The notes: generated from the sequence alone by a model not told the origin. A DNA stretch of 64,000 nt from Frondihabitans peucedani (GCF_039537585.1 NZ_BAABAU010000001.1:744001-808000), one strand, 5' to 3'. Shown: positions 1 to 63,224, counted from the stretch's first letter. Numbers and translations: made by a program.

Positions 1-653
1 GCGACCCCGACCTCTGGGTGGGCCTCCTGCACGCGAAGGGCGAGCACTTCACCGCGGGCCTCGACCTCGCGGACGTGGCGAAGGCGGTCACGCCGGAGGG
101 CCTCGACATCGTCCCCGAGGGCGGCATGAACCCGTGGCAGGTCGACGGCGCGCAGCTGTCGAAGCCGGTCGTCATGGCCGTCCAGGGCACCTGCCTCACC
201 CTCGGTGTCGAGCTGGCGCTCGTGAGCGACATCGTCATCTCGGCGAAGACCAGCCGCTTCGGCCAGATGGAGGTGCGACGAGGCATCCTGCCGTTCGGCG
301 GCGCGACGACGAGGTTCCCGGCGCGCGTCGGCTGGGGCAACGCGATGCGGTGGATGCTGACCGGCGAGACCTTCGACGCCAAGGAGGCGCTCAGGATCGG
401 ACTCGTGCAGGAGGTCGTCTTCAACGACCAGGTCTACAACCGCGCCTACGACCTCGCCCACCGGATCGCAGCCCAGGCGCCGCTGGCGGTGCAGGCGACT
501 CTCGCGAACGCGCGCCTGGCCGTCCGGGACGGAGAGGCGGCAGCCGAGAAGAGGCTCCAGCCGGAGCTCGTCCGACTGATGCAGACCGACGACGCCGGCC
601 TCGGCATGAAGTCGTTCCAGGCCCGCGGCGAGGCGGAGTTCACCGGCCGCTGA
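1..653 (+). CDS. Enoyl-CoA hydratase/isomerase (crotonase) family protein, 5' truncated by window edge
   Basis: The reading frame is open from the first bases of the window, so the true start lies upstream; 216 codons are present. The crotonase fold is recognisable from the stretch GTCLTLGVELALVSDIVI, which carries the oxyanion-hole and active-site region, followed by the usual FPARVGWGNAMRWMLTGE and DAKEALRIGLVQEVV segments. Family members hydrate or isomerise acyl-CoA thioesters in fatty-acid or amino-acid breakdown. The substrate cannot be deduced. It converges on the CsbD gene. An Arg-Ile pair near 391 is written AGG ATC, an example of the octamer bias described in the findings. Confidence 0.88.
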   Translation, partial: DPDLWVGLLHAKGEHFTAGLDLADVAKAVTPEGLDIVPEGGMNPWQVDGAQLSKPVVMAVQGTCLTLGVELALVSDIVISAKTSRFGQMEVRRGILPFGGATTRFPARVGWGNAMRWMLTGETFDAKEALRIGLVQEVVFNDQVYNRAYDLAHRIAAQAPLAVQATLANARLAVRDGEAAAEKRLQPELVRLMQTDDAGLGMKSFQARGEAEFTGR

Positions 654-708
654 CGCCGCCCGACCGGACTGCCGCAGACAGGACGATGGCCCGCGCAGGC
701 AGAGCGAA

Positions 709-735
709 GGCCCGCCACCTCGAGGGTGACGGGCC
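709..735 (-). terminator. Hairpin downstream of the CsbD gene
   Basis: GGCCCGCCACC and GGGTGACGGGCC face each other around a TCGA loop. One position is C/A on the plus strand but G-U when read from the minus strand, so the structure fits best as a terminator for the minus-strand CsbD transcript. No U-tract is present. Confidence 0.55.
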
Positions 736-752
736 GGACGCTGCAACGGGTG

Positions 753-926
753 TCAGGACTTGAAGACGTCCTTGACGTTCTCGCCCGCCTTCTTGGCGGA
801 TGCCTCGGCCTGGTCGCCGTGACCCTCTGCTTCGAGGTTCTCGTTGTCCGTGGCCTTGCCGGCTGCCTCTTTGGCCTTGCCGGCCGCATCCTGAGCAGCG
901 TTCTGGATCTTGTCGCCGATACCCAT
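753..926 (-). CDS. CsbD family stress-response protein
   Basis: This 57-residue, highly charged, Ala/Lys/Glu-rich protein begins MGIGDKIQNAAQDAAGKAKE and has the CsbD repeat pattern (AAGKAKEAAGKAT, then AEGHGDQAEASAKKAGENVKD). CsbD proteins are small general-stress proteins of unknown mechanism. I chose the ATG at 926 because AAGGAGGC lies 7 bases upstream; longer open-frame extensions upstream have no such signal and lack family similarity. A possible minus-strand -10 (TAGGGT, 976-981) would give a leader of about 45 nt. The gene is monocistronic and divergent from the neighbouring oxidoreductase operon. Confidence 0.88.
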   Translation of the reverse strand: MGIGDKIQNAAQDAAGKAKEAAGKATDNENLEAEGHGDQAEASAKKAGENVKDVFKS

Positions 927-1093: not shown

Positions 1094-2494
1094 ATGACGA
1101 CTTATGACCTGATCGTGATCGGTGCCGGAGCTGTCGGCGAGAACGTGGCCGACTACGCGACCCGCGGGGGCCTGAAGGTCGCCCTCGTCGAAGCCGAGCT
1201 CGTCGGCGGGGAGTGCTCCTACTGGGCCTGCATGCCGTCGAAGGCGCTCCTCATGAGCTCGACCGCCCTGAACGCGGCCCGCGCGGTCGGCGGGGCGCGG
1301 GAGGCCGTGACCGGCGAGCTCGACGTGCAGGCGGTGCTGAACCGCCGCGACTCCTTCACGAGCAACTGGGACGACTCGTCGCAGGCCGAGTGGGTCGCCG
1401 GCGCCGGGATCGACCTGATCCGCGGGCACGCCACCATCACCGGCGTCCGCGAGGTGACCGTCGACGGGCAGGTCCTGACCGCCACGCACGCGGTCGCCGC
1501 CGTCACCGGGTCGACCGCCCTGCTGCCCGACGTCCCGGGCCTCCGCGACGCCCGCCCCTGGACGAGCCGCGACGCGACGAGCGCCAAGGTGATCCCGCAG
1601 AGCCTGATGATCGTCGGCGGCGGCGTGGTCGCCGCCGAGATGGCGACGGCGTACCAGCAGCTCGGCGCGAAGGTCACCCTCGCTGCCCGCAGCGGACTCC
1701 TCGGCGGGCAGGAGCCCTTCGCCGGCGAGTTCGTGCGCGACGCGCTCACCGACCTCGGCGTCGACCTCCGACTGGGCGTCTCGCCGACCGAGGTCGTCCG
1801 CACCGAGCACGACCTCGTCGAGACGACCCTCTCCGACGGCACGACCGTCATCACCGACGAGATCCTGGTCGCCACCGGTCGTCTCCCCCGCACGGACGAC
1901 CTCGGCCTCGAGAACGTCGGCATCGAGCCGGGCGACTGGCTCCACGTCGACGACACGCTGCTCGTGCACGGCACCGACTGGCTGTACGGGGTGGGCGACG
2001 TCAACCACCGCGCCCTCCTGACCCACCAGGGCAAGTACCAGGCGAGGGCCGCCGGCGAGGTCATCGCCGCGCGCGCGCTCGGCAAGCCGCTCCAGACGGA
2101 GCCCTGGGGCGCCCACGTCGCGACCGCCGACCACGCCGCGGTCCCGCAGGTCACCTTCACCAGCCCCGAGGTCGCCAGCGTCGGCCTCACCGCCGACGCC
2201 GCCCAGAAGCAGGGCATCGACGTGCGCGTCGTCGACTACGACCTCGCCGCCCTCGCAGGATCGAGCCTCAAGTCCGACGTCTACAAGGGCCAGGCGCGCA
2301 TCGTCGTCGACGAGTCGCGGAAGGTCCTCGTCGGCGCCACCTTCGTCGGTCCCGAGGTCTCCGACCTCCTCCACGCGGCGACCATCGCCGTCGTCGGCGA
2401 GGTGCCGATCGACCGGCTCTGGCACGCCGTGCCGTCGTACCCGACGGTCAGCGAGATCTGGCTCCGCCTCCTCGACGCGTACGGCCGTCCGTGA
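1094..2494 (+). CDS. FAD-dependent pyridine nucleotide-disulfide oxidoreductase (mercuric reductase/lipoamide dehydrogenase-like)
   Basis: This is a 466-residue class I flavoprotein disulfide reductase. The FAD-binding GAGAVG starts near residue 10, the redox disulfide is C41-SYWA-C46 followed by MPSK, the NAD(P) site is VGGGVVAAEM near residue 176, and the second FAD motif GVGDVNH is near residue 298. The C-terminal catalytic His-Pro-Thr of true lipoamide dehydrogenases is replaced by YPTVSE, so a general or unknown disulfide substrate is likelier than lipoamide. TACCTT (1082-1087) ends 6 bases before the ATG and there is no ribosome-binding site, which suggests a leaderless transcript. First gene of a three-gene operon; the next start overlaps its stop. 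Confidence 0.85.
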   Translation: MTTYDLIVIGAGAVGENVADYATRGGLKVALVEAELVGGECSYWACMPSKALLMSSTALNAARAVGGAREAVTGELDVQAVLNRRDSFTSNWDDSSQAEWVAGAGIDLIRGHATITGVREVTVDGQVLTATHAVAAVTGSTALLPDVPGLRDARPWTSRDATSAKVIPQSLMIVGGGVVAAEMATAYQQLGAKVTLAARSGLLGGQEPFAGEFVRDALTDLGVDLRLGVSPTEVVRTEHDLVETTLSDGTTVITDEILVATGRLPRTDDLGLENVGIEPGDWLHVDDTLLVHGTDWLYGVGDVNHRALLTHQGKYQARAAGEVIAARALGKPLQTEPWGAHVATADHAAVPQVTFTSPEVASVGLTADAAQKQGIDVRVVDYDLAALAGSSLKSDVYKGQARIVVDESRKVLVGATFVGPEVSDLLHAATIAVVGEVPIDRLWHAVPSYPTVSEIWLRLLDAYGRP

Positions 2495-2847
2495 AGAACC
2501 CCCTCCTCGACTCGCCCGTCTCCCGTGCGGGCTGCGCCGTCGCGACGGCCGTGGGCCTGGCGATCGGCGCACCCCTCAGCACGGGCAGGATCCGGGTGGT
2601 CGGCGATCTGATCGTCTGCGCCGGGCTCCCCCGCTGGGCCTTCCGACGCGGCGGCACCTGTGTCGGCCGCGTGTACCTCACCCGCGACAACGACGGCGAC
2701 GACGTGCTCGAGCACGAGGCCGTCCACGTCGCGCAGTGGAAGAAGCACGGCATGCTCATGCCGCTGCTCTACGCCATCGCGGGCCGCGATGCGCTCACCA
2801 ATCGATTCGAGATCGAAGCCGGCCTCGAGAAAGGCGGCTACCGATGA
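2491..2847 (+). CDS. Small HExxH-containing protein of unknown function
   Basis: This 118-residue protein starts with GTG inside the GTGA stop-start overlap with the upstream gene and ends in an ATGA overlap with the downstream SDR, so it is translationally coupled on both sides. An Ala/Gly-rich N-terminal part could be one membrane segment or buried helix (residues 15-30). Residues 73-83 read VLEHEAVHVAQ, giving a zincin-type HEAVH at 75-79, followed by QWKKHG and a C-terminal helix. HExxH with a downstream acidic residue is typical of metallopeptidases, but no further catalytic domain is present. Relatives are often labelled Fe-S oxidoreductases, yet no cysteine cluster is visible here. Confidence 0.75.
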   Translation: MKNPLLDSPVSRAGCAVATAVGLAIGAPLSTGRIRVVGDLIVCAGLPRWAFRRGGTCVGRVYLTRDNDGDDVLEHEAVHVAQWKKHGMLMPLLYAIAGRDALTNRFEIEAGLEKGGYR

Positions 2848-3750: not shown

Positions 3751-4674
3751 GTGCTTACTTCGACGAGAACGCCCCTCGCCCCCGGCATCTTCCCCGTGAC
3801 GGTGTCGCGGATCGACGTGCTCAGCCCGGGCTTCGTCCGCGTCACGTTCGAGGGCTCCGAGCTCGCCCACTTCGGCGACGCCGGGCTCGACCAGCGCCTC
3901 AAGGTCGTCCTCCCGCACCCCGACCACGGCCTCGAACGGTTCCCGGTCACGTCCGACTGGTGGTCGGCCTGGCGGCGTCAGAGCAACGCGGAGCGGAACG
4001 TCTTCCGCACCTTCACGGCCCGCGCGATCCGACCGCGGGAGCGCGAGGTCGACATCGACTTCGTCGCGCACGGCGACGCCGGGCCGGCGTCGGCCTGGGT
4101 GTCGAGCGCCGAGGTGGGCGACGAGCTGATCCTGGTCGGGCCCGACGTCCGGGGCGGCGCTCTGGGCGGCGGGATCGAGTGGAACCCCGCCGGGGCCGCG
4201 ACCGTGCTCCTGGCGGGCGACGAGACCGCCGTGCCGGCCGTCTCCGCGATCCTGGCCCAGCTCGAGAGCTCTGCCGTGGGCTGCGTCTTCCTCGAGGTGC
4301 CGACCCCCGACGACGTCCTCGACGTCATCGCTCCCGAGGGGGTGCACGTGCACTGGCTGCCCCGCTCGACGCGGCAGGCGCCGCACGGCGAGCTGCTGAT
4401 CGAGGCGGTGCGCGACTGGACCGCCCGCTTCGTGACCGCCGAGCACCACGGCGTGCCGTCCGATCCTGCGAGCCTCGTCGACGTCGACATCGACCACGAC
4501 ATCCTCTGGGAGGTCCCGGAGGGCGGCCGCCTCGCGGGCGAGTTCTACGCCTGGCTGGCCGGAGAGGCCGGGGCGATCAAGACCCTCCGCCGCTTCCTGG
4601 TCGGCGACCTCGGCATCGATCGGCAGCAGGTGGCCTTCATGGGCTACTGGCGGCTCGGGAAGGCCGAGAACTGA
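3751..4674 (+). CDS. Siderophore-interacting protein (FAD-dependent ferric-siderophore reductase)
   Basis: This 307-residue protein has the two-domain SIP layout: an N-terminal FAD-binding barrel with RTFTAR (86-91, the family's R-x-Y/F-T flavin motif) and a C-terminal SIP domain beginning at AGDETAVPAVSAIL (about 155-168) and ending FMGYWRLGKAEN. Such proteins reduce and release iron from imported ferric siderophores in the cytoplasm. The start is GTG with no ribosome-binding site, close behind a -10-like hexamer, consistent with leaderless translation. It leads a four-gene operon with two FecCD permeases and an ATPase. No siderophore-binding lipoprotein is encoded in this operon. Confidence 0.9.
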   Translation: MLTSTRTPLAPGIFPVTVSRIDVLSPGFVRVTFEGSELAHFGDAGLDQRLKVVLPHPDHGLERFPVTSDWWSAWRRQSNAERNVFRTFTARAIRPREREVDIDFVAHGDAGPASAWVSSAEVGDELILVGPDVRGGALGGGIEWNPAGAATVLLAGDETAVPAVSAILAQLESSAVGCVFLEVPTPDDVLDVIAPEGVHVHWLPRSTRQAPHGELLIEAVRDWTARFVTAEHHGVPSDPASLVDVDIDHDILWEVPEGGRLAGEFYAWLAGEAGAIKTLRRFLVGDLGIDRQQVAFMGYWRLGKAEN

Positions 4675-6846: not shown

Positions 6847-7643
6847 TGTCCGGCGCCCCCTCGACCCTGTCCGCCCGAGGCCTGCGACTCGCCTACGACG
6901 ACCGCGTCGTCGCCGACGACCTCTCGTTCGACGTCCCCGACGGCGAGCTGACCGTCGTGATCGGGCCGAACGCCTGCGGCAAGTCGACCCTCCTGAAGGC
7001 GCTCGCCCGGACGCTGAAGCCGCGCGCCGGGACGGTGACGCTCGACGGCCGCCCCCTGCCGTCGTACCACTCGAAGGAGGTGGCGAAGCGCCTCGGAATG
7101 CTGCCGCAGAGCCCGATCGCACCGGAGGCCATCAGCGTCCGCGACCTCGTCGGACGAGGCCGGTTCCCGCACCAGGGGCTCTTCCGGCAGTGGTCCGCCG
7201 CCGACGAGGAGGCCGTCGCGCAGGCCCTCCTCGCGACCGACATCGTCGATCTCGCAGACCGCGGCGTCGCCGAGCTCTCGGGCGGGCAGCGCCAGCGCGC
7301 GTGGATCGCCATGGCCCTCGCCCAGCAGACCGAGCTGCTGCTGCTCGACGAGCCGACGACGTTCCTCGACATCGCGCACCAGTACGAGGTCCTCGAGCTC
7401 TGCGCACGGCTCCACCGCGAGGGGCGGACCCTCGTCGTCGTCCTTCACGACCTCAACCAGGCGGCCCGCTACGCCACACACCTCGTCGTGATGAAGGACG
7501 GCAGGATCGTCGCCCAGGGCACGGCGGGCGACGTGCTGACGGCGGACCTCGTGTCGGACGTCTTCGGCCTGCCCTGCGAGATCATCGACGACCCCCAGAC
7601 GCACACGCCGCTCGTGGTGCCGCTGTCGCGCGCCACCGCCTGA
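6846..7643 (+). CDS. Iron-siderophore ABC transporter ATP-binding protein
   Basis: This 265-residue ABC ATPase has Walker A GPNACGKST (about 40-48), Q-loop MLPQSP, signature LSGGQRQRAWIAMALAQQ, Walker B LLLLDEPTTFLD and switch histidine VVLHDLNQA. The FepC/FhuC-type spacing and VGRGRFPHQG segment fit the iron-siderophore subclass. It completes the SIP-permease-permease-ATPase operon. A tandem duplicated hairpin sequence lies immediately after its stop, between it and the convergent SIP-domain gene. Confidence 0.92.
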   Translation: MSGAPSTLSARGLRLAYDDRVVADDLSFDVPDGELTVVIGPNACGKSTLLKALARTLKPRAGTVTLDGRPLPSYHSKEVAKRLGMLPQSPIAPEAISVRDLVGRGRFPHQGLFRQWSAADEEAVAQALLATDIVDLADRGVAELSGGQRQRAWIAMALAQQTELLLLDEPTTFLDIAHQYEVLELCARLHREGRTLVVVLHDLNQAARYATHLVVMKDGRIVAQGTAGDVLTADLVSDVFGLPCEIIDDPQTHTPLVVPLSRATA

Positions 7644-9940: not shown

Positions 9941-10890
9941 CCCGCTTCGTGCTCTCGCGCCTCGTGCTGCTCGTCCTCGGGCTGCTCGTGGCGAGTGCGC
10001 TGATCTTCTTCACGCTCCGTCTTCTGACGGGCGACGTGGCGCAGGTCATCGCGGGCACGCAGGGCACGGCCGACCAGGTCGCCGGGATCCGGAAGAGCCT
10101 CGGCCTCGACCGGCCGCTCCCGGTGCAGTACGCCGCCTGGCTCGGCGGCCTCCTCCACGGCGACCTCGGCAGGTCGCTCGTGACGGGTTCGTCCGTGTCG
10201 TCTCAGCTCGTCCAGAAGCTCTCCGTCACGCTGCCCCTCGCGGGCCTCTCCCTCGTGATCGGGCTCGTCCTCGGCATCCCCCTCGGCGTCGTCTCGGCGC
10301 TCCGCCGGCGCAGGATCAGCGGGACCGTCATCTCGGGCGTCGCCCAGGCCTTCGCAGCGGTCCCCGCGGTCTGGGGCGGGATGATCCTGATCGCGGTGTT
10401 CGGGGTCGCGATCCGGCTGTTCCCGACGCAGGGCTACCCGAGCGACGGGTGGGCCGACCCCGTGCAGGCGCTGCGGAGCCTGCTGCTGCCGGCCCTGACG
10501 ATCGGGGTGATCGAGGGGGCCGTGATCCTGCGCTTCACCCGCTCGGCGACGCTCGAGGCGATGTCGCAGGACTACGTGCGGACCGCGGCCGCCAAGGGGA
10601 TGACCCGCACCCGGGCGGTCGTCACCCACGGGCTCCCCAACGTGCTGCTCAGCGTCGTGTCGGTGCTCGGGGTGCAGCTGGCCGCCCTGCTCGTCGGCGC
10701 CGTGCTCGTGGAGCAGCTCTTCGCCCTGCCGGGGGTCGGCAGGATGCTCGTGCAGGACGTCGGGGTCCGCGACCTCACGAAGGTGCAGGGCGAGCTCCTC
10801 GCTCTCACCGGGCTGGTGCTGATCCTCGGCTTCGTGGTCGACCTGGTGCACCGGTCCGTCGATCCGCGCCTCCGGGAGCCGGGCGAGTGA
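9937..10890 (+). CDS. Peptide/nickel-type ABC transporter permease (DppB-like)
   Basis: This 317-residue protein with about six membrane spans has the DppB layout: an N-terminal span (LVLLVLGLLVASALIFF), the external segment LGLDRPLPVQYAAWLGGLLHG-D-LGRS, and the EAA loop DYVRTAAAKGMTRTRAVVTH (residues about 210-229) that contacts the ATPases. It pairs with the next permease. Start GTG overlaps the lipoprotein stop (GTGA). An RRI triplet near 10311 is written with AGG ATC. Confidence 0.92.
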   Translation: MTRFVLSRLVLLVLGLLVASALIFFTLRLLTGDVAQVIAGTQGTADQVAGIRKSLGLDRPLPVQYAAWLGGLLHGDLGRSLVTGSSVSSQLVQKLSVTLPLAGLSLVIGLVLGIPLGVVSALRRRRISGTVISGVAQAFAAVPAVWGGMILIAVFGVAIRLFPTQGYPSDGWADPVQALRSLLLPALTIGVIEGAVILRFTRSATLEAMSQDYVRTAAAKGMTRTRAVVTHGLPNVLLSVVSVLGVQLAALLVGAVLVEQLFALPGVGRMLVQDVGVRDLTKVQGELLALTGLVLILGFVVDLVHRSVDPRLREPGE

Positions 10891-18658: not shown

Positions 18659-18685
18659 TCAGTCTCCGCTGATCCTGCGCTCGCT

Positions 18686-35205: not shown

Positions 35206-35229
35206 CCGCAGGATCAGCCCCGCGCACCC

Positions 35230-44589: not shown

Positions 44590-44616
44590 TCCTGCCCGCT
44601 GATCGTTGTCTCTGAC

Positions 44617-49941: not shown

Positions 49942-52900
49942 GTGTCTAGCCACGTGACCGGAACGACAGACGAAGGGGCCGCTGAGTTCGGCGCCAACGA
50001 ATGGCTGGTCGACGAACTGTACGAGCAGTACGTCGTCGACAAGAACTCGGTCGACAAGTCGTGGTGGCCCGTCCTCGAGAGCTACAAGCAGAGCGATTCG
50101 GGCGCAGGATCAGCGCCCGCCGTCGCACCCGCTCCCTCCGACGCGGTGCGACCCGCCCCCACCGCCGCCCAGGCCTCCCCCGCTCCCGCCAGCGCGACCG
50201 CCAGCCCCGTGGTCGCCGCCCGCACCACCTCCGCGCCGCCGAAAGAGAAGCCGATCCCGGCCGAGGCCCCGACGCAGGCCGCGAAGAAGAAGGCCGTCGA
50301 CGGCGAGCAGCCGCAGGCCGAGCCCGAGAATGTCGTGCAGCCTCTCCGCGGCATGGCGAAGAGCCTCGCGACGAACATGGACGCCAGCCTCAGCGTCCCG
50401 ACGGCGACGAGCGTCCGGACCATCCCGGCGAAGCTCCTGATCGACAATCGCATCGTCATCAACAGCAACCTGAAGCGCGCCCGCGGCGGCAAGGTCTCGT
50501 TCACGCATCTGATCGGCTGGGCGCTCGTCCAGGCGCTCAAGAAGTTCCCGAGCCAGAACGTCTACTACGACGTCGTCGACGGCAAGCCCTCGGTCGTGAC
50601 GCCGGCGCACATCAACCTCGGCCTCGCCATCGACATCCCGAAGCCCGACGGCACCCGCGCGCTGCTCGTGCCCGGCATCAAGAAGTGCGAGACGATGACG
50701 TTCGCGCAGTTCGTCGCCGCCTACGAAGACGTGGTGAAGCGCGCCCGCGCCAACAAGCTCACCGCCGACGACTTCTCCGGCAACACGATCTCGCTGACGA
50801 ACCCCGGCGGCATCGGCACCGAGCACAGCGTGCCGCGCCTCATGAAGGGCGCAGGCTCGATCATCGGCGCCGGCGCCCTCGAGTACCCGGCCGAGTTCCA
50901 GGGCTCCTCCCCCAAGACCCTGGTCGAGCTCGGCATCGGCAAGACGATCACGCTCACCTCGACCTACGACCACCGGGTCATCCAGGGCGCGGGCTCCGGC
51001 GAGTTCCTCAAGATCGTCCACTCGATGCTCATCGGCGAGGACGGCTTCTACGAAGACGTCTTCCGGGCCCTCCGCATCCCGTACGCGCCGATCCACTGGA
51101 ACCCCGACATCAACGTCAACCTGGCCGAGCGCGTCGGCAAGACCGCCCGCGTCCAGGAGCTGATCAACAGCTACCGGGTCCGCGGCCACCTGATGGCCGA
51201 CATCGACCCGCTCGAGTACCGCCAGCGCACGCACCCCGACCTCGAGATCGAGCGTCACGGCCTGACCTTCTGGGACCTCGACCGCGAGTTCGTCACGGGC
51301 GGCTTCGGCGGGAAGCCGGCCATGCTCCTCCGCGACGTCCTCGGCGTCCTGCGCGACTCGTACTGCCGTCACATCGGCATCGAGTACATGCACATCCAAG
51401 ACCCGGCGCAGCGGCGCTGGGTGCAGGAGCACATCGAGGTGCCCTACACGAAGCCGACCCACGACGAGCAGATGCGGATCCTGGCGAAGCTCAACGAGGC
51501 CGAGGCCTTCGAGACCTTCCTCCAGACGAAGTACGTCGGCCAGAAGCGCTTCAGCCTCGAGGGCGGCGAGTCGGCGATCTCGCTCCTCGACACGATCATC
51601 CAGGACGCCGCCTCGGCGGGCCTCCAGGAGGTCGCGATCGGCATGGCCCACCGCGGCCGCCTCAACGTCCTGACCAACATCGCGGGCAAGACGTACGGCC
51701 AGATCTTCCGCGAGTTCGAGGGCACCCAAGACCCGAAGACGGTCCAGGGCTCCGGCGACGTGAAGTACCACCTCGGCACCGAGGGCGAGTTCACGAGCGC
51801 CTCCGGCAAGACGATCCCGGTCTACCTCGCCGCGAACCCGTCGCACCTCGAGGCCGGCGACGGCGTGCTCGAGGGCATCGTGCGCGCCAAGCAGGATCGC
51901 GGGGTGCCGATGTCGTTCGCCGTCCTGCCGATCCTCGTGCACGGCGACGCCGCCATGGCCGGCCAGGGCGTGGTCGTCGAGACGATGCAGATGTCGCAGC
52001 TGCGCGGCTACCGCGTGGGCGGCACCATCCACATCGTGATCAACAACCAGATCGGCTTCACCACGTCGCCCTCCGAGGGCCGGTCGTCGATCTACTCGAC
52101 CGACGTCGCCAAGACGATCCAGGCGCCGATCTTCCACGTCAACGGCGACGACCCCGAGGCCGTGGCCCGGGTCGCCGAGCTCGCCTTCGCGTACCGCCAG
52201 GAGTTCAAGCGCGACGTGGTCATCGACCTCATCTGCTACCGCCGGCGCGGGCACAACGAGGGCGACGACCCCTCGATGACGCAGCCCATGATGTACAGCC
52301 TCATCGAGAACAAGCGGAGCGTCCGCACCCTCTACACCGAGGCGCTCGTCGGCCGCGGCGACATCACCGAGGAGGAGTACGAGGGCGCGCACCGCGACTT
52401 CCAGGACCGCCTCGAGCAGGCCTTCGGCGAGACGCACGCCGCTCAGACGGGGTCGATCCCGGTCGTGACCGGCGACGGCGGAGCCGTCAGAGACCTGGAG
52501 CGCCCCGTGGCGCAGCAGCACGACGAGTCGACCCCCGACGGGTTCCAGACCGCTGTCGACGCGAGCCTCATCACGTCGATCGGCGACGCCTTCGACAACC
52601 CGCCCGCCGGGTTCTCCGTGCACCCGAAGCTGCAGCAGCTGCTGAAGAAGCGCTACGAGATGAGCCGCAGCGGCCAGATCGACTGGGCGTTCGGCGAGCT
52701 CCTCGCCCTCGGCTCGGTGCTCACGGAGGGCACGCCCGTCCGCTTCGCCGGGCAGGACTCCCGCCGTGGCACGTTCGTGCAGCGCCACGCGGTCCTGCAC
52801 GACCGCGAGAACGGCCAGGAGTGGATCCCGCTCCAGAACGTCACCGACAACCAGGCCAAGCTCTGGATCTACGACTCGCTCCTCAGCGAGTACGCCGCCA

Positions 52901-53700
52901 TGGGCTTCGAGTACGGCTACTCGGTCGAGCGGGCCGACGCCCTCGTGCTCTGGGAGGCCCAGTTCGGCGACTTCGCCAACGGCGCGCAGACGATCGTCGA
53001 CGAGTTCATCTCGAGCGCCGAGCAGAAGTGGGGCCAGCGCTCCAGCGTCGTGCTGCTCCTGCCGCACGGCTACGAGGGCCAGGGCCCCGACCACTCGTCG
53101 GCCCGGATCGAGCGCTACCTGCAGCTCTGCGCCGAGAACAACATGACCGTGGCGCGCCCGTCGACGCCGGCGTCGTACTTCCACCTGCTCCGCCGCCAGG
53201 CCTACGCCCGGCCGCGCCGCCCGCTGATCGTCTTCACGCCGAAGGCGATGCTGCGCCTCCGCGGGGCGACCAGCGAGGTGGACGCGTTCACGAGCGGCCG
53301 GTTCGAGCCGGTCCTCGACTGCACGCGCGTCGGCGATCCTGCTGCCACGAAGCGGATCGTCCTGCACTCGGGCAAGATCCACTACGACCTCTCGGCCGAG
53401 CTCGACAAGCGCGGCGTCGGCGACGACATCGCGCTGGTCCGCCTCGAGCAGCTGTACCCGCTGCCGGTCGACGAGATCCGCGCCGTGCTCGACCGCTACC
53501 CGTCCGCCGACCTGGTCTGGGCTCAGGAGGAGCCCGAGAACCAGGGCGCGTGGCCGTTCATCGCGCTCGAGCTGGCTCCGAAGCTGGGCCGGACCATCAC
53601 GGTCGCCTCGCGGCCCGCGTCGGCCTCGCCGGCCGCTGGCTCGTCGAAGCGGAGTGCCGCCGAGCTGACCGCCCTGCTCGACCGGGCGCTGACGCTCTAG
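49942..53700 (+). CDS. kgd: Multifunctional 2-oxoglutarate decarboxylase/dehydrogenase (E2-E1 fusion, Kgd/OdhA)
   Basis: This 1252-residue enzyme is the actinobacterial fused oxoglutarate dehydrogenase. Residues 13-45 ([17 protein letters not shown]) form the flexible N-terminal segment, followed by an Ala/Pro/Lys linker. The E2 succinyltransferase domain spans about 125-345 (catalytic [17 protein letters not shown]) and has no lipoyl domain. The ThDP-dependent E1 domain spans about 390-1240: [42 protein letters not shown], and [15 protein letters not shown]. It links the TCA cycle and glutamate synthesis; in relatives the FHA protein GarA/OdhI regulates it. Start GTG follows GGAGAG at a long 13-base spacing. 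Confidence 0.96.
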
Positions 53701-54167: not shown

Positions 54168-54197
54168 GCCCCGAAGCTACCGCAGGATCGAGAGGTG

Positions 54198-55213: not shown

Positions 55214-56629
55214 ATGCAGGTATTCAGGTATTCCGGCCCGGAGTTCAGCCCCTACGAGACCGATCGGGAGCCCGAGGTCGACGAGGGCTTCTGGGTGGCG
55301 CCCACCGCGGCCGCGCCCGTCTCGGCCGAGCTGTCGCTGCCGGGATCGAAGTCGCTGACGAACCGCGAGCTGGTGCTGTCGGCCCTGGCGACCGGCCCCT
55401 CGATCCTGCGCCTGCCCCTGCACTCGCGCGACTCCGCGCTGATGGTCGAGGCGCTCCGCTCCCTCGGCACCACCATCAGCGAGGTGCCGAACGACGAGCC
55501 GTTCGGGCCCGACCTCGAGATCGTCCCGCAGGCATTCACCGGCGGCGTCTCGGTCGACTGCGGGCTCGCCGGCACGGTGATGCGCTTCCTGCCGCCGCTC
55601 GCCGCCCTCGCCACCGGCCCGGTCACCTTCGACGGCGACGAGGGCGCCCGGCGCCGCCCGATGCGGACCACCATCGAGTCGCTTCGGGCCCTCGGGGTCG
55701 ACGTCGACGACGACGGGCGCTCCGCCCTCCCCTTCAGCCTCCACGGCACCGGCGAGGTCGAGGGCGGCGAGGTCTCGATCGACGCGTCGGCCTCGAGCCA
55801 GTTCGTCTCGGGCCTGCTCCTCTCGGCACCGCGCTTCGCGAACGGGCTGACGCTGCGGCACACGGGCGAGAAGCTGCCGAGCCTTCCCCACATCGAGATG
55901 ACCATCGACGCGCTCGCGTCGCGCGGCGTCACCGTCTCTTCGCCCGAGACGGGTGTCTGGGTGGTCCCTCCGGGGCCGATCGCCGCGCGCGAGGTCACCA
56001 TCGAGCCCGACCTGTCGAACGCCGCGCCGTTCCTCGCCGCGGCTCTGGTCGCCGGCGGCCGCGTGTCGATCCGGCACTGGCCGCACGACACCACGCAGGT
56101 CGGCGACGACCTCCTCGACCTGCTGCCCCTGTGGGGCGCGACCGTGACGAGAGACGGCGACACCGTGACGATCGACGGCGGCGACGGCCTTCTCGGAGGC
56201 GGCTCGCTGCCCGGCGTCGACGTCGACCTCTCGCGCGGCGGCGAGCTAGCCCCCGCCCTCGTCGCCCTCGCAGCCCTCGCCTCCGGCCCGAGCACCATCA
56301 CCGGCATCGCCCACCTCCGCGGGCACGAGACCGACCGCCTCGCCGCCCTCGTCGCCGAGATCAACGGCCTCGGCGGCCGCGCGACCGAGCTCGACGACGG
56401 CATCCGCCTCGAGCCCTCCCCGCTCCACGCGGGCAAGTGGAAGACCTACGGCGACCACAGGATGGCGCACGCCGCGGCGATCATCGGCCTCGCCGTCCCC
56501 GACGTCGAGCTCGACGACGTCAGAGTCGTGTCGAAGACCCTCCCCGAGTTCGTCGCCCTCTGGGACGACCTGCTCGGCCGCACCGTCACCACGAGCCCGG
56601 CCGACACCAGCCTGCTCGGGTTCCTCTAG
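55214..56629 (+). CDS. aroA: 3-phosphoshikimate 1-carboxyvinyltransferase (EPSP synthase)
   Basis: This 471-residue enzyme catalyses the sixth step of the shikimate pathway, joining PEP to shikimate-3-phosphate. Motifs include [18 protein letters not shown] (about 43-60), [13 protein letters not shown] (the GNAGT loop, here LAGT), [27 protein letters not shown] and [17 protein letters not shown] 35-residue N-terminal extension makes it longer than the E. coli enzyme, typical of actinobacteria. TACCCT (55199-55204) lies 9 bases before the ATG. rsgA follows after 9 bases, in the order aroA-rsgA-hisN. Confidence 0.95.
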
Positions 56630-56638
56630 GCGCCGCGG

Positions 56639-57715
56639 ATGTCCTGGTGGAGTGACGGCGACGACGCCGACGGTGCAGACGACGAGCGCGAGTACGGCGA
56701 GTACGACGAGAGCTCGGTGCGGGTCCGGCCGAATCCCAAGGGGAACCGCCCGCGCACCAAGCAGCGACCCGCCTACGACGAGGCGGTCGAGGGGGTCGTC
56801 TGGACCGTCGACCGCGGACGCTACGGCGTCCTCCTCGACGCCGGAACCCCCGACGAGCGCGAGATCACGACCGCCCGAGCCCGCGAGCTCGGCAAGAAGT
56901 CGGTGGTGACCGGCGACCGCGTCGACGTCGTCGGCGACACCACCGGGGCCGAGGGCTCGCTCGCCCGCATCGTGCGGGTTCACGAGCGGACCACGCTCCT
57001 CCGTCGGAGCGCCGACGACTCCGACGCCGTCGAGCGAGTCATCGTGGCGAATGCCGACCAGATGCTCATCGTCGTCGCGGCAGCCGACCCGGAGCCGCGG
57101 TCGCGCCTCGTCGACCGCTACATGGTGGCCGCGTTCGATGCCGGGGTGGAGCCGATCCTGGTCATCACGAAGACCGACCTCGCCGATCCTGCGCCGTTCG
57201 CCGCCCACTTCTCGTGCCTCGACCTCCGGATCCTCACCTCGACCTCCGACGCGTTCACGTCGTCGGACGGCGAGGAGTCGGCCTCGCTCCGCGAGCTCCG
57301 GAGCGTCCTGGCCGACCACGTGACCGTGACGGTGGGGCACTCCGGCGTCGGCAAATCGACGCTCGTCAACGCGCTGACCGGCTCCAATCGGGCCGTCGGC
57401 GTCGTCAACACCGTCACGGGCCGCGGCCGCCACACGTCGTCGTCGACCGTGTCGTTCAAGGTGCCCTCGGGCGGCTGGATCATCGACACCCCGGGCGTCC
57501 GCTCGTTCGGCCTGGGGCACGTGAACCCCGAGAATATCCTCCAGTCGTTCGCGTCGCACGCGGTGTTCCCGGAGGGGTACGAGCCGGTGGACGGCATCCC
57601 GCTCGATCAGGCCCACGACTGGGAGATCGTCGACCGCGTCGAGGCCGGCGAGCTCGGCGACGTCGGCCGTGAGCGGCTGGAGTCGCTGCAGGCGCTGCTG
57701 GTGTCGAAGGGCTGA
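56639..57715 (+). CDS. rsgA: Ribosome small-subunit-dependent GTPase A
   Basis: This 358-residue circularly permuted GTPase assists late 30S maturation. An OB-fold N-terminus (about 45-120) is followed by G4 TKTD (177-180), G1 GHSGVGKST (233-241) and G3 DTPG (283-286), the permuted order of YjeQ/RsgA. The C-terminal zinc domain normally has a C-x-C-x-H-x-C cluster; here the region VNPENILQSFASHAVFPEGY to the end contains no cysteine. The N-terminus is acidic and then very basic (RPNPKGNRPRTKQRP). It is cotranscribed with aroA. Confidence 0.92.
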   Translation: MSWWSDGDDADGADDEREYGEYDESSVRVRPNPKGNRPRTKQRPAYDEAVEGVVWTVDRGRYGVLLDAGTPDEREITTARARELGKKSVVTGDRVDVVGDTTGAEGSLARIVRVHERTTLLRRSADDSDAVERVIVANADQMLIVVAAADPEPRSRLVDRYMVAAFDAGVEPILVITKTDLADPAPFAAHFSCLDLRILTSTSDAFTSSDGEESASLRELRSVLADHVTVTVGHSGVGKSTLVNALTGSNRAVGVVNTVTGRGRHTSSSTVSFKVPSGGWIIDTPGVRSFGLGHVNPENILQSFASHAVFPEGYEPVDGIPLDQAHDWEIVDRVEAGELGDVGRERLESLQALLVSKG

Positions 57716-58754: not shown

Positions 58755-59951
58755 TCAGTGGTGGTGGTGGGCGTGGGCGTGATCCTGCTCACCGCCGTCG
58801 TCGGACGGACCGGCGGGAGCGCCGCCCATCATCCGGAGCATCGACCAGCTCCCGGAGCGCACGAAGACGACGAGCAGCACCGCCGCGAGGGCGAGGAAGG
58901 CGATGTTGAGGAACGTGGTGTAGTTCCACGAGATGCCGGTGTCGACGATCGCGACGTCGCGGTTCGACGGCACGAGGCCGAGCGGCGTGAAGATCAGCTC
59001 GACGGCGTAACCGGCCACGACCATGGCGCCGTAGAAGACCGCCGTGATGCGGAGGGCGGCCCGGCCGCCGTAGTAGCGGCGGTAGATCAGGATGATCGGC
59101 ACGATGATGAGGTCGGCGAAGATGAAGCTGATGACGCCGCCGAACGAGATGCCGCCGTTCCAGAGCACCGCGGCGAGCGGCACGTTGCCCACCGAGCAGA
59201 CGAAGCTGACCATGGCCAGGATCGGCCCGACCAGCGGCCCGATCACGAACGAGACGCTGGGCGACGACTCGAAGAAGACGGCCTGCAGCCACTCCTTCGG
59301 CACCCAGGCGTCGAAGGCCCCGGCGATGAGGAGCCCGATGACGATGTCGCGGAGCACCGCCGCCCAGTCCATGACGAAGTACTGAGAGACCGAGGTCACG
59401 CCGCGCCGCGACAGCAGGCGACGGAAGAAGCCGTCGTCGCCGTGCACCGACATGTCCATGCCCGCGTGCCCCTCCATCTGACCGGCGAGCCCCTTCTCGG
59501 CCTGCTCTCGGGCGGCCTCGACGATGCGGCCGCGCATCCAGAGCCGGAACCCCAGGGCGATGAGCAGGATCATGATCGGCCCGCCGACGAACTCGGCGAG
59601 CGTGAACTGCCACCCGAGCACGAACGCGAGGATCAGACCGAGCTCGACCACGAGGTTCGTCGACGCGACCTCGAACGCCATGGCCGACGAGAACGACGCG
59701 CCCTTGCGGAACAGCGCCCGTGCCAGCGCGACAGCCGCGTACGAGCACGACGACGACAGCGCGCCGAACCCGGTCGCCACCCCGAGAGCGCGGGGCGAGT
59801 CGTCGCTCATCAGGCGGGTGATCCGCTCGGTGCGGATGACGGCCTGGATGACCCCCGAGAGCGTGAATCCGAGGACGAGGGGCCACAGGATCTGCCACCC
59901 CATCGCTCCTGCTGCGGCGAGGGCGCGGCCGACGGCATCGAGAATGAACAT
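58755..59951 (-). CDS. UPF0718/ArsP_1-family permease with His-rich C-terminus
   Basis: This 398-residue permease has about eight to ten membrane spans. The repeated motifs GFGALSSSCSYAAVALARAL (about 62-81) and VCSVGNVPLAAVLWNGGISF face each other in the two halves, as in the DUF318/ArsP_1 family. A cytosolic loop contains GQMEGHAGMDMSVHGDDG (Met/His-rich), and the protein ends EQDHAHAHHHH, both suited to metal binding. TATAAG (plus 59960-59965) lies 8 bases before the ATG and is overlapped by a CsoR-like operator. Copper or a related metal is therefore a plausible signal or substrate. Confidence 0.85.
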   Translation of the reverse strand: MFILDAVGRALAAAGAMGWQILWPLVLGFTLSGVIQAVIRTERITRLMSDDSPRALGVATGFGALSSSCSYAAVALARALFRKGASFSSAMAFEVASTNLVVELGLILAFVLGWQFTLAEFVGGPIMILLIALGFRLWMRGRIVEAAREQAEKGLAGQMEGHAGMDMSVHGDDGFFRRLLSRRGVTSVSQYFVMDWAAVLRDIVIGLLIAGAFDAWVPKEWLQAVFFESSPSVSFVIGPLVGPILAMVSFVCSVGNVPLAAVLWNGGISFGGVISFIFADLIIVPIILIYRRYYGGRAALRITAVFYGAMVVAGYAVELIFTPLGLVPSNRDVAIVDTGISWNYTTFLNIAFLALAAVLLVVFVRSGSWSMLRMMGGAPAGPSDDGGEQDHAHAHHHH

Positions 59952-60718: not shown

Positions 60719-61740
60719 GCCGCCGACGGGGCAGTCGCCCGGCGCCGCGGGCGACCGTGCACCCGGACGACCGCGACGCCCACGACACCCGCCGCGCGGC
60801 CCTGTCGATCGGCTGGCAGATCATGCTCGCCTCGGCTGTCCTGGTGCTCGGGATCGTCGTGATCGCGATCGTCTTCGTGCTGCACCAGGCTCTGCCCCGG
60901 GAGCAGCTCGAGGCGACGCGGGCCGGCAGCAGCCACATCTACGTCGACTCGAACGACATCCTGCAGGCCCTGATCCTGCTCGGCCTCGGCGCCGTCGTGT
61001 TCGCGGGCGTGGTCAGCTGGATCATCGCCCGCCGCGCGGTCCAGCCCCTCGGCGACGCCCTCCGGCTCCAGCGGCAGTTCGTCGCCGACGCCAGCCACGA
61101 GCTCCGGACGCCCCTCGCCGTCCTCGACGCCCGACTGCAGGTCGTCCAGCGCCGGCAGCAGAACGGCACCGGGGTCACTCCCGAGGCGCTCAACGAGCTC
61201 CGGGCCGACACCCGCGCGCTCATCGACATCGTCGGCGACCTCCTCCTCGCGGCCGGCGGCGACGGAGGGCCGACGGAGGTCATCGACGCAGGCCCGGTCG
61301 TCGCCGAAGCTGCGTCGTCGCTGGCGATCCTGGCGCAGGATCGCGGGGTCGTCGTCACGACCGCCGTCGACGGCCGCCACCCCGTCGCCATCCCGGCCAC
61401 GAGTCTCCGTCGGAGCGTCGTCGCGCTGGTCGACAACGCGATCGCGCACTCCCCCGCGGGCGGCACGGTGACTGTCGCGCTGCAGCTCGAGGGCGGCCGG
61501 GTCGCCCTGACGGTGGCCGACGAGGGCCCCGGTATCACGGGCATCGAGCCCGACCGCGTCTTCGACCGCTTCGCGCACACCGAGCCCGCAGCCGGCGACA
61601 CCCGGCGCCCGGGGTTCGGCATCGGGCTGGCCCTGGTCCGCGAGCTCGCCAGCCGGCAGGGAGGCTCGGTGCGTGTTGCCTCGACCTCGGAGCAGGGCAC
61701 CGTGTTCCGCCTCGAGCTCCCCGCGGCCGCACCGGCGTGA
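60715..61740 (+). CDS. Sensor histidine kinase (partner of the OmpR-type regulator)
   Basis: This 341-residue kinase has two membrane spans (about 34-57 and 83-105) around a very short, 25-residue external loop. A HisKA domain follows with His128 in QFVADASHELRTPLAVLDA, then an HATPase domain (VALVDNAIAHSPAGG, VADEGPGITGI, FGIGLALVRELASRQGG). The tiny sensor loop resembles intramembrane-sensing or stress kinases. It is coupled on both sides by 4-base overlaps: GTGA with the regulator and GTGA with the FetB-like permease. Confidence 0.92.
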   Translation: MSRRRGSRPAPRATVHPDDRDAHDTRRAALSIGWQIMLASAVLVLGIVVIAIVFVLHQALPREQLEATRAGSSHIYVDSNDILQALILLGLGAVVFAGVVSWIIARRAVQPLGDALRLQRQFVADASHELRTPLAVLDARLQVVQRRQQNGTGVTPEALNELRADTRALIDIVGDLLLAAGGDGGPTEVIDAGPVVAEAASSLAILAQDRGVVVTTAVDGRHPVAIPATSLRRSVVALVDNAIAHSPAGGTVTVALQLEGGRVALTVADEGPGITGIEPDRVFDRFAHTEPAAGDTRRPGFGIGLALVRELASRQGGSVRVASTSEQGTVFRLELPAAAPA

Positions 61741-62483
61741 CCGCTGTCACGACCCTGATCGCCGTCGCCGTCCTGGTGGCGGTGACGACCGCCGTCGTCG
61801 CGGGCCTCCGGCTGGAGCGCCCGTGGCTGCAGCCGTGGGCGATCCTCCGCGCGGTCGTCCAGCTCGGCCTCCTGAGCGTCATCCTGCTCGGGGTCGTCTC
61901 GAGCCCGGTCTGGGTGGGCGTGTTCCTGGTCGCGATGGTCGTGGCGGCCTCCTGGACCGTCTTCACGCGGCTCGGTGTCGCCCGCTCGACGCTGCCGTTC
62001 CTGGTGCTCGTGGTGGCTGTCGCCTCCGCGGTGCCCGTCGTGATCGTGTTCTCGCTCGGCGCCGTCGACCTCAGCCCGCGCTACGTGCTCGCCGTCGGCG
62101 GCATCGTCGTCGGCAACGTGATGACCGTGTCCACCCTGTTCGGCCGCCTGCTGGCCGCGCAGCTCGTCGCCGAGCGCGACCAGATCGAGGGCTGGCTGGC
62201 GCTCGGGGCGACACCGCGGCAGGCATCCGCGACCGTGACGCGGACGGCGGCCTCGTCGGCGATCATCCCGTCGACCGACCAGACCCGGACCACCGGCATC
62301 GTGACCCTGCCGGGCGCGTTCGTCGGCGCGGTCTTCGGCGGGGCGTCGCCTCTGGCCGCCGCGGAGTTCCAGCTCGTCGTGCTGGCGTCGATCCTGGCCG
62401 CAGGATCCGTCGCCCTGGCGCTGCTCACCTGGCGCTTCGGCGCGCCCGTCCGCCTGCCGACCGAGGCCGCGCCGCTCGCCTGA
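61737..62483 (+). CDS. FetB/UPF0014-family ABC transporter permease
   Basis: This 248-residue protein has about seven membrane spans and the UPF0014 core RAVVQLGLLSVILLGVV, SPRYVLAVGGIVVGNVMTV and the loop ERDQIEGWLALGATPRQASA, ending with TDQTRTTGIVTLPGAFVGAV. In E. coli FetAB exports iron and protects against peroxide. The usual FetA ATPase gene is not adjacent. It is translationally coupled to the kinase, so the two-component system may control it directly. Confidence 0.87.
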   Translation: MTAVTTLIAVAVLVAVTTAVVAGLRLERPWLQPWAILRAVVQLGLLSVILLGVVSSPVWVGVFLVAMVVAASWTVFTRLGVARSTLPFLVLVVAVASAVPVVIVFSLGAVDLSPRYVLAVGGIVVGNVMTVSTLFGRLLAAQLVAERDQIEGWLALGATPRQASATVTRTAASSAIIPSTDQTRTTGIVTLPGAFVGAVFGGASPLAAAEFQLVVLASILAAGSVALALLTWRFGAPVRLPTEAAPLA

Positions 62484-62567
62484 CCGAGCGACGGCCGCCG
62501 GCGAGGAACCGGATTCCGGACGGCGTCGCGGTGCCGCGGCGCTGTGCGGCGTCCGGAGACGCGGTCG

Positions 62568-63224
62568 CTATTCGGCGTCGACGGCGTCGACCCTGTCGGT
62601 GGTGGCGGAGGTGTCGACAGCTGCCAGGCGCTTGGCCTTCGACCGCTCCACGAGGGCGTGGATCAGGATCGGCACGACCGAGATGATCACGATGACGATG
62701 GCGAGCACGTCGATGTGCTCGGTGATGAACGGGAAGCCGCTGAGGAGCGAGCCGATGATCGTGAGGCCGCCGGCCCAGAGCGCGGCGCCGGTGACGTTCC
62801 AGAGGAGGAACCGACGGTAGGTGTAGCCGCTGGCGCCGGCCGCGAGGGGCACGTAGGTGCGGACGATCGGCACGAAGCGCCCGAGGATGAGCGCCGGACC
62901 GCCGTAGCGGGCGTAGAAGGCCTCGGCCCTCTCGAGGTACTCGGTCTTCAGGATGCGGGCGTCGGGCTTGAAGAGGCGCCGTCCGAACCGGTTGCCGAGG
63001 AAGTAGCCCGCCGAGTCGCCGAGCACGGCGGCGATGAAGCCGCAGAGGGCGATCAGCGCCACCGACAACCCGAGGTGCTCGTGCAGCAGCCCCGCCGTGA
63101 CGAGGAGCGAGTCGCCCGGCAGGAACGGGAAGAGGACGCCGGACTCGATGAAGATCATCAGCGACAGACCGCCGAGAGCCCACGGCCCCAGGCCGTTGAG
63201 GATGGTTTCGGGATCGAGGATCAT
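62568..63224 (-). CDS. DedA family membrane protein
   Basis: This 218-residue DedA/SNARE-associated protein has about five or six membrane segments. The family signature FIESGVLFPFLPGDSLLVTAG is followed by GDSAGYFLGNRFGRRLFK, then GRFVPIVRTYVPLAAGAS. DedA proteins are needed for membrane lipid scrambling (undecaprenyl phosphate or phospholipid) and envelope integrity. I chose the ATG at 63224 (MILDPETILNGLGPWALGG) as the common family start; an open extension to 63293 adds 23 hydrophobic residues and cannot be excluded. Confidence 0.87.
   Translation of the reverse strand: MILDPETILNGLGPWALGGLSLMIFIESGVLFPFLPGDSLLVTAGLLHEHLGLSVALIALCGFIAAVLGDSAGYFLGNRFGRRLFKPDARILKTEYLERAEAFYARYGGPALILGRFVPIVRTYVPLAAGASGYTYRRFLLWNVTGAALWAGGLTIIGSLLSGFPFITEHIDVLAIVIVIISVVPILIHALVERSKAKRLAAVDTSATTDRVDAVDAE

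Follow-up and report, generated by a model that had tools for sequence, protein, structure and literature searches.

A non-palindromic octamer with species dialects pervades Frondihabitans genomes and is a candidate uptake-type self-recognition sequence

We describe here the octamer GCAGGATC, read as GATCCTGC on the opposite strand, in the genome of Frondihabitans peucedani (G000; 3.69 Mb, 12 contigs) and in its relatives. The window, that is, the whole stretch of 64,000 nucleotides from which the analysis departs, corresponds to G000:C1:744001-808000. The over-representation of this word is real, genome-wide and lineage-specific, and the word is kept beyond the synonymous background. Its density, its non-polarity, its depletion on plasmid-like contigs, its dialects and the way its conservation is tied to spelling would all be explained together by DNA uptake, and the machine for this appears to be present. 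For this reason our preferred reading, held tentatively and at slightly less than an even chance, is that GCAGGATC, with the core CAGGATC, may serve as a genome-wide uptake-type self-recognition sequence with dialects, by analogy with those of Neisseria and Haemophilus. Among the matches listed in the literature on the octamer, or on uptake sequences in Actinobacteria and Microbacteriaceae, we found no report of this motif.

Exact matching on the plus strand yields 29 copies of GCAGGATC and 25 of GATCCTGC in the window, 54 in all, precisely the numbers that the initial annotation had counted by eye. It had also expected two or three copies from base composition, and our computation gives 2.1 (2.14), an excess of about 25-fold; the coordinates that it cited are right within 1-2 bases. 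The word is not self-complementary, and the strands were counted separately: the whole 3.69 Mb of G000 holds 3208 copies (1579 forward and 1629 reverse), or one per 1151 bases. A third-order Markov chain raises the expectation for the window to 10.0 copies. Orders 5 and 6, which predict 41 and 54, were dropped as nulls, as such models include the 6- and 7-mers of the motif itself. The reversed pattern (12 + 10 copies) was not used as a null either, because it contains CTAG, a word that is rare in such genomes.

As the main null we shuffled synonymous codons inside each gene, which keeps proteins and codon usage fixed. Window genes came from a simple codon-model script (60 genes covering 92% of the window, with approximate borders) and hold 49 copies against 4.8 ± 2.0 after shuffling (at most 11 in any of 1000 shuffles). 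The 18 presumably chromosomal pieces of G000, 404 kb in all, contain GCAGGATC 299 times against 35.2, which puts it first among all octamers; the ranks below it are occupied by shifted overlapping words, such as CAGGATCG (250 against 36) and CGCAGGAT (201 against 27). The same octamer ranks first over the codon shuffle in five other genomes (G285, G246, G087, G047 and G014). The count is hence not matched by a codon null, in line with what had been anticipated; a codon-pair-preserving null, which had also been suggested, would absorb the motif itself.

Enrichment is not confined to one reading frame. In a sample of 20 pieces (444 kb) of G000, which takes in two pieces of its plasmid-like contig C2, the sense frames contain 35 copies against 0.5 expected, 68 against 6.4 and 38 against 2.7, and the antisense frames 68 against 0.8, 1 against 0.08 and 91 against 24.5. 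Five of the six frame and strand classes are thus far above expectation, the sixth standing at 1 against 0.08. Intergenic gaps shorter than 600 bases hold 22 copies in 28.6 kb, where a second-order chain predicts 1.9. In the window, the copies that had been placed between genes are intergenic by our own calls too (18671..18678 on the minus strand, 35208..35215 and 54182..54189 on the plus strand), and so is 24527..24534 on the minus strand. Protein-level explanations are therefore insufficient, as had been proposed. Two opposite copies are fused into GCAGGATCCTGC at 23766-23777, again as first described (left half 23766..23773 on the plus strand, in gene 22752-24332 (-); right half 23770..23777 on the minus strand); the fusion is also found in G246, and five such fusions exist in the 404 kb of G000.

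The claim that codon choice bends to write the octamer holds as well. In the 404 kb of G000, Asp-Pro-Ala is written GATCCTGCn in 68 of 112 cases, with GAT at 7% among the codons for Asp and CCT at 5% among those for Pro, and nGC-Arg-Ile is written AGG ATC in 68 of 103, with AGG at 6% of Arg codons. Where Asp-Pro-Ala or Arg-Ile in G000 leaves room for GCAGGATC, the word is present in about six cases out of ten. In the same genome G-Gln-Asp-C is written CAG GAT in 37 of 48 cases, Ala-Gly-Ser is written GCAGGATCn in 35 of 120, and G-Ile-Leu-C is written ATC CTG in 90 of 96, a form already favoured by codon preference. Twelve loci from elsewhere (11 Curtobacterium, 1 Lacisediminihabitans) use the Asp-Pro-Ala form in 0/59 and the Arg-Ile form in 1/30 contexts, and 12 Frigoribacterium loci give 1/52 for Asp-Pro-Ala, 0/14 for Arg-Ile, 2/33 for Gln-Asp, 0/57 for Ala-Gly-Ser and 16/25 for Ile-Leu.

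These data bear on the simplest rival, namely that a GC-rich genome merely displays its usual bias in codons, codon pairs or oligonucleotides, without function. Loci of Frigoribacterium, Curtobacterium and Microbacterium do exceed the codon shuffle weakly, by 1.8-2.1 fold, and a share of the signal is thus background; these loci are not independent, since each was taken around an ortholog of the same window gene. Two Leifsonia/Okibacterium loci show no excess (1 against 1.1). In its simple form, however, the synonymous shuffle refutes this explanation for G000, G285, G246, G087 and G047, and it also has to face the excess seen between genes as well as in five of the six gene frames, the choice of rare codons for the motif, the tie between conservation and a shared top word, and the depletion on plasmid-like contigs (the last two are described below). 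We consider it very improbable.

How copies are placed relative to each other was assessed in two ways. The filling of Asp-Pro-Ala and Arg-Ile contexts in G000 does not depend on the distance to the next copy, from 31/54 below 150 bases through 34/46, 22/42 and 30/47 to 19/26 above 1200 bases (Spearman p 0.51), and no significant trend was observed in G285, G246 or G087 either. Gaps between copies in G000 are as in random placement, with a coefficient of variation of 0.997 against 0.990 and 27 gaps below 100 bases against 27.0; below 50 bases there are 20 against 13.5 (standard deviation 3.6). A regular spacing, as for a function required once per kilobase, was not found in either way. Taken together, the two results suggest that copies are acquired and retained individually, without filling a spacing requirement. 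We know of no report, for any uptake sequence, of filling irrespective of neighbouring copies.

Conservation at orthologous sites was followed in codon alignments of window genes with the other six Frondihabitans genomes, amounting to about 40 kb each for G285, G246, G087 and G004 and about 20 kb each for G150 and G201 (31, 16, 29, 34, 14 and 18 of the 60 genes, respectively); sites gapped in the relative were left out and sites were pooled without phylogenetic correction. The nearest relative is G285, and amino-acid identity to G000 is 0.77 for G087 and 0.78 for G004. An octamer of G000 is identical in 9/20 cases in G285, 5/10 in G246 and 7/23 in G087, and in 1/11 in G150, 3/13 in G201 and 2/24 in G004. 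This makes 21/53 in relatives whose top word is GCAGGATC, among which G087 was counted despite its second spelling, against 6/48 in the others (p 0.003). Rare codons (AGG, GCA, GGA, CCT and GAT, for the same amino acid) follow the same division: they are kept in 20/37 cases within the motif against 38/306 outside it in the first group (p 3e-8), and in 8/38 against 32/264 in the second (p 0.13). Fourfold-degenerate sites agree at 0.53-0.59 in every comparison with G000, in a smaller alignment. Site conservation beyond synonymous expectation, which the initial annotation had asked about, was thus found in the relatives that share the top word, within at most about 40 kb per relative. Local spellings can even be seen in place: at 12738..12745 (minus strand, in gene 12556-13374 (+)) the word is GCAGGATC in G000, G087 and G201, GCAGGATG in G150 and GAAGGATC in G004.

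Such dialects appear throughout the genus. In samples of 180-404 kb per genome, judged by the codon shuffle, GCAGGATC is the preferred word in G000 (8.5 fold), G285 (7.0) and G246 (5.4). The remaining four of the seven genomes use other or additional spellings, namely GCAGGAGC, GCAGGATG, GCAGGAAC and MAGGATCC: G087 has GCAGGATC at 111 against 16.2 and GCAGGAGC at 120 against 33.6; G150 has GCAGGATC at 56 against 11.6, GCAGGATG at 68 against 15.5 and GCAGGAGC at 107 against 30.1; G201 has GCAGGAAC at 86 against 16.6 and GCAGGATC at 62 against 13.9; and G004 has CAGGATCC at 88 against 11.7, AAGGATCC at 36 against 3.2, AGGATCCG at 96 against 12.8 and GCAGGATC at 48 against 10.9. A protein tree of partly overlapping orthologs reads ((G000,G285),(G201,G004),(G150,(G246,G087))). 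From this tree, and from the use of GCAGGATC in G047, a genome of another genus of the family, the GCAGGATC spelling is probably ancestral.

Variants within G000 help to delimit the word. One-mismatch forms occur 736 times against 501 (1.5 fold), mostly at the first and last base, and the largest excesses are those of the first-base variants (A, C or T; 182 against 62) and of GCAGGATG (82 against 31.5), from which we take the strict core to be CAGGATC. One form that is a single base off the motif, GGAGGATC, goes the other way, with 10 copies against 42 expected in G000 coding sequence and counts under expectation in all nine sets, perhaps through avoidance of the internal ribosome-binding-like GGAGG. 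Flanking bases in G000 show an enrichment of a preceding C (171 against 93) and of a following G (152 against 115), which a preference for CpG could explain. The stretch about 13-23 bases 3' of GCAGGATC in G000 coding sequence is C-rich and G-poor, which frame-aware base composition does not explain; the asymmetry peaks at +16 for C (z 5.0) and at +17 for G (z -3.7), with offsets not all significant.

Across the family (299 genomes, from a table read by eye), the seven Frondihabitans genomes carry 3208 copies (3.69 Mb), 2980 (4.7), 2135 (4.0), 2092 (4.8), 1013 (3.4), 919 (3.5) and 844 (3.8), and G047 carries 1559 in 2.9 Mb. The other 291 genomes have at most about 230 per Mb, which is the level of G201, a genome with a different top word (for example G158, 620 in 2.7 Mb), and an order-wide sample of 297 genomes likewise stays at or below about 230 per Mb once G000 is set apart. 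G014 is moderately enriched (19 against 4.2 in 80 kb of genes, 4.5-fold). Separately, in ten orthologous Microbacterium loci (L080, L086, L087, L090, L091, L093 and L095-L098) the top octamer by the codon shuffle is CGGCATCC/GGATGCCG, at 192 against 46.7, possibly another genus-specific word.

The octamer is scarce on contigs that, to judge from their size and lower GC content (0.64, 0.68 and 0.64), are presumably plasmids. The 94-kb contig C2 of G000 (two pieces) holds 3 copies where chromosomal density predicts 33.6, the 450-kb contig C2 of G285 (two pieces) 1 against 27.1, and contigs C2-C4 of G246 (five pieces) 12 against 44. With five peptide contexts pooled, the word is present in 3/22, 1/13 and 8/59 cases on these three sets. 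A purely local mutation bias would also mark long-resident plasmids; provided that the plasmids are not recent, this depletion therefore favours a chromosome-specific process. As an observation apart, the 450-kb contig, which belongs to F. sucicola, bears its own pair of T2SSE-family ATPase matches (G285:C2:143902-146036).

The plasmid data matter for a second rival, an accumulation driven by methylation or repair, as proposed for the highly iterated palindrome HIP1 of cyanobacteria. Here a methyltransferase or a biased mismatch-repair system would read the site or part of it (GATC, GGATC) and convert sequences toward it or protect them. Filling independent of neighbouring copies fits such a local process, and alternate HIP sequences exist (PMC4390886). 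A gene for an N6/N4 methyltransferase (PF01555) was also matched in all 12 genomes tested, with a second one in G000. This shared enzyme is, however, 88-94% identical across dialects in six genomes of the genus (the G004 sequence was not recovered), and was rejected as dialect determinant for being too conserved; PF01555 matches also occur in low-GCAGGATC genomes such as G090. Neither a C5 methylase (PF00145) nor a Vsr endonuclease (PF03852) was matched in G000, G285, G246, G201, G004 or G047, in a search that did not extend to Type I, D12-class and other methyltransferase families or to MutS/MutL. PF00145 was equally lacking in G009, G051 and G090, with one match each in G087 and G150 and presence also in G014, and among the 12 genomes Vsr was found in G087 and G014 only. 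The motif is moreover non-palindromic, and it is scarce on plasmid-like contigs within the same genomes. On balance we regard a methylation or repair process as unlikely, although it is the first competitor to be reckoned with. In G087 the genes of the C5 methyltransferase and of Vsr lie close together (G087:C1:612523-613968), and no other of the seven Frondihabitans genomes gave a match to Vsr.

The orientation of copies was tested piece by piece. Thirteen pieces over 808 kb of contig C1 of G000 contain 131 forward and 132 reverse copies, the 18 pieces are compatible with equality (chi-square 8.2, p 0.98). A bias of 75:25, its sign left free in each piece, fits them 25 log units worse than 50:50. 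A guide like the FtsK-orienting polar sequences (KOPS) is thereby excluded in G000, which agrees with the absence of strong polarity reported earlier for the window. Clear polarity was not seen in G285, G246, G087 or G047 either. G150 is borderline (chi-square p 0.075, where 50:50 fits 6.9 log units worse than the free-sign bias), and in G201, G014 and G004, three sets that are uninformative, the free-sign bias is better by 3.2, 2.3 and 1.0 log units. GC skew per piece as a proxy for the leading strand (180:159 in G000) was dropped and the test replaced, because the skew mirrors gene direction (0/18 agreement with the plus-gene majority). Antisense copies outnumber sense copies in 8 of the 9 sets (for example 44:18 in G201 and 67:44 in G087), and the codon shuffle itself produces an antisense excess (24.6 against 10.6 in G000, 11.1 against 2.8 in G201).

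Balanced orientation weighs on two further rivals. Chi sites are abundant chromosomal octamers, variable from species to species, in some cases degenerate and similar to GC(A/T)GG; that of E. coli is oriented relative to replication, which is typical for that species and not proven for all Chi sites. A Chi-like signal read by a nuclease of the RecBCD, AddAB or AdnAB type can be fitted to the plasmid-like depletion and to the dialects, and the figures for G150, G201, G014 and G004 leave room for weak polarity there. The even counts of G000 and the lack of clear polarity in four other genomes speak against it, so that an E. coli-like oriented Chi is unlikely in G000 and a Chi-like signal in general is, in our estimate, less likely than a methylation or repair process. 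Next below it we place a binding site for a chromosome-organising or segregation protein that would coat the main chromosome and spare plasmids, which we think improbable. Such a protein would agree with the scarcity on plasmid-like contigs and with a placement that ignores genes, strand and spacing; a density of about one copy per kilobase and the absence of the polarity that KOPS-type guides need speak against it, and the analysis identified no candidate protein. Among the four unranked functions that the initial annotation had listed, uptake would best fit the dialects, the depletion on plasmid-like contigs and the conservation tied to a shared spelling; the lack of polarity in G000 weighs against KOPS and against a Chi oriented as in E. 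coli, and the lack of a match in G000 against the C5-methylase/Vsr form of methylation and repair.

Genes compatible with DNA uptake are found in these genomes. In G000, comEA (SLBB and helix-hairpin-helix domains) lies immediately ahead of comEC, which has Competence and metallo-beta-lactamase domains, at about 624-627 kb of contig C1. All seven Frondihabitans genomes and G047 have a full-length match to a pilus-type ATPase of the T2SSE family (E about 1e-137 to 1e-139) and another one next to it, an arrangement that we putatively name pilB-pilT from sequence. TadE gave weak matches in 6 of 12 genomes and none in G000. Competence dependent on an Flp/tad pilus is documented in another actinobacterium, Micrococcus luteus (PMC4322843). 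In the uptake reading, a sequence-specific receptor on the import machine (a type IV pilus, then ComEA/ComEC) would prefer fragments that bear the motif, and these, once recombined, would replace chromosomal stretches that lack it. The motif would then build up on either strand wherever the protein code permits, and be re-supplied against mutation. If receptor specificity drifted in one species, its genome would drift to a new spelling, that is, a dialect. We infer the existence of the receptor, uptake as the driving step and the competence of these species.

Several observations weigh against the uptake reading. One-mismatch forms stand at just 1.3-1.6 times expectation, and PMC1939737 gives excesses of 3.0 fold for Haemophilus and 5.8 fold for Neisseria under a simpler null. 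If kilobase fragments were imported, one would expect copies to lie apart from each other, which random gaps and distance-independent filling do not reflect; an even spacing has been ascribed to Haemophilus uptake sequences (Karlin et al., cited in PMC1939737), although the discussion of PMC1939737 describes them as less even than compaction would require. Inverted intergenic pairs, a typical and not a defining trait of DNA uptake sequences (DUS), were not seen among the 22 pairs of copies less than 60 bases apart in the 404 kb of G000, 21 of which overlap called genes, the single intergenic pair being a direct repeat. Plasmid-like contigs do not show a clean absence, since Gln-Asp contexts are converted in 5/7 cases on those of G246. 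The conservation result groups relatives by top word, and G150, G201 and G004 also carry GCAGGATC, at 4.4-4.8 fold. As for the machinery, ComEC is present in 12/12 of the family genomes tested, whether or not they are enriched, and more than 100 of the 299 have a strong match to a PilB-like ATPase, most of these genomes being without GCAGGATC enrichment. This ATPase is thus not specific enough to predict the motif in the family, and machinery so widespread in non-enriched genomes does not single out the enriched species: it permits the motif without predicting it. The moderately enriched G014 has a weaker ATPase match only, and in G246, still enriched, comEC is split over two adjacent pieces in different frames (G246:C1:2981383-2982173), so that either the competence gene is broken in a species that bears the motif or the assembly is at fault. 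Finally, we know of no competence or uptake experiment in Frondihabitans.

Pasteurellaceae and Neisseriaceae are both Gram-negative. DNA uptake sequences had been described from these two families as of 2007 (PMC1939737). A broader proposal, which we advance with still more reserve than the uptake reading itself, is that Frondihabitans may possess a genome-wide, chromosome-biased self-recognition sequence with species dialects, shared through ancestry or evolved separately in at least one other genus of Microbacteriaceae (G047); this would be the first uptake-type sequence in Actinobacteria and in any single-membrane bacterium, would act as a mating barrier between sister species, and would accumulate site by site irrespective of neighbouring copies. 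If so, sequence-based mate recognition arose outside the known families, in a high-GC Gram-positive genus, and natural competence is to be looked for in a large actinobacterial family. Seven genomes with at least four spellings also make a tractable system for asking how a motif spreads, be it through uptake drive, biased repair or selection. Whether uptake is the right answer or not, something sequence-specific wrote about three thousand copies, and its identity is directly testable.

The remaining copies of the window, all exact matches, are given here with the strand of GCAGGATC (a copy on the minus strand reads GATCCTGC on the plus strand) and with genes from our own calls. In plus-strand genes, copies on the plus strand lie at 2255..2262 (gene 1094-2494; also in G285), 2585..2592 (2491-2847), 7501..7508 (6846-7643; also in G087), 17192..17199 (16583-18658), 24981..24988 and 25254..25261 (both 24638-26038), 26268..26275 (26035-26826; also in G285 and G004, with GCAGGAGC in G087), 44816..44823 and 45266..45273 (both 44617-45711), 50104..50111 (49942-53700), 61335..61342 (60757-61740) and 62400..62407 (61737-62483). 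To these are added the copies that encode Arg-Ile as AGG ATC, at 10310..10317 (9937-10890; also in G087), 11398..11405 (10887-11783) and 31848..31855 (30776-31981), and those that encode Gln-Asp as CAG GAT, at 12855..12862 (12556-13374; also in G285, G087 and G150), 41360..41367 and 41810..41817 (both 41037-42203) and 51891..51898 (49942-53700). Minus-strand copies in plus-strand genes are those at 4462..4469 (3796-4674), 10524..10531 (9937-10890; also in G285, G087 and G201), 12481..12488 (11780-12559; also in G285, with GCAGGATG in G150 and G201), 18601..18608 (16583-18658), 30946..30953 (30776-31981), 33815..33822 (33237-34493; also in G246), 55402..55409 (55214-56629) and 60972..60979 (60757-61740), together with the Asp-Pro-Ala copies written GAT CCT GC at 25616..25623 (24638-26038; also in G285), 53335..53342 (49942-53700) and 57185..57192 (56639-57715); the copy at 44588..44595 runs across the end of gene 43969-44589 (+).

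In minus-strand genes, minus-strand copies are located at 14688..14695 (13538-14959), 20507..20514 (20010-20726; also in G201 and G004), 28385..28392 (28347-29168), 38998..39005, 39675..39682 and 39828..39835 (all 38940-40226; the second also in G246 and G087, with GAAGGATC in G004, the third also in G285), 46963..46970 (46834-48225), 49560..49567 (48361-49800) and 58781..58788 (58755-59951). Plus-strand copies occupy 14841..14848 (13538-14959), 20561..20568 (20010-20726), 21722..21729 (21477-22019; also in G285), 36355..36362 (35426-36670; also in G285 and G246), 43453..43460 (43095-43940; also in G087), 47730..47737 (46834-48225) and 59564..59571 (58755-59951). Two other features of the window deserve mention. 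A tmRNA gene lies at 63333-63710 on the minus strand (165.8 bits), and gene 16583-18658 (+) codes for a 691-residue protein with two chaplin-type stretches (ChpA-C, PF03777), of a family best known from the aerial hyphae of Streptomyces.

Comparison with known systems places the octamer nearest to uptake sequences. With HIP1 (GCGATCGC) it shares an extreme over-representation, the presence of GATC and the replacement by other words in some species; HIP1 differs in being palindromic and linked to methyltransferases, while the word described here is non-palindromic and no methyltransferase has been linked to it. Elhai's model for HIP1 reportedly involves a methyltransferase that methylates C. 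Methyltransferases that recognise GATC and CGATCG within HIP1, and other words in some species, are described in PMC4390886. Like Chi (GCTGGTGG) and Chi-like octamers, GCAGGATC is an abundant chromosomal octamer varying by species; it differs in its lack of polarity in G000 and in strength, since the window holds about 25 times the copies predicted by base composition and E. coli Chi occurs 1008 times against 151 expected (PMC1939737).

The uptake signal sequences (USS) of Pasteurellaceae have a similar copy density. Their reverse complement is commoner on coding strands, as is the case in 8 of 9 sets here, where codon preference alone predicts it. They also resemble our word in lacking orientation bias along the chromosome (PMC1939737 and PMC2346458), and differ from it in that spacing is random here and no long flanking consensus was seen. 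The DUS of Neisseriaceae differ in sequence and in host, which is here actinobacterial, single-membrane and of about 70% GC, and in their inverted intergenic pairs. Like our word, DUS are non-palindromic words present in thousands, at about one copy per kilobase, in coding and non-coding DNA (about 1900 copies in the 2.2-2.3 Mb of the meningococcus, PMC3630211), and they too form species dialects, described in the same source as variants about a fixed core, two spellings of which can share one genome.

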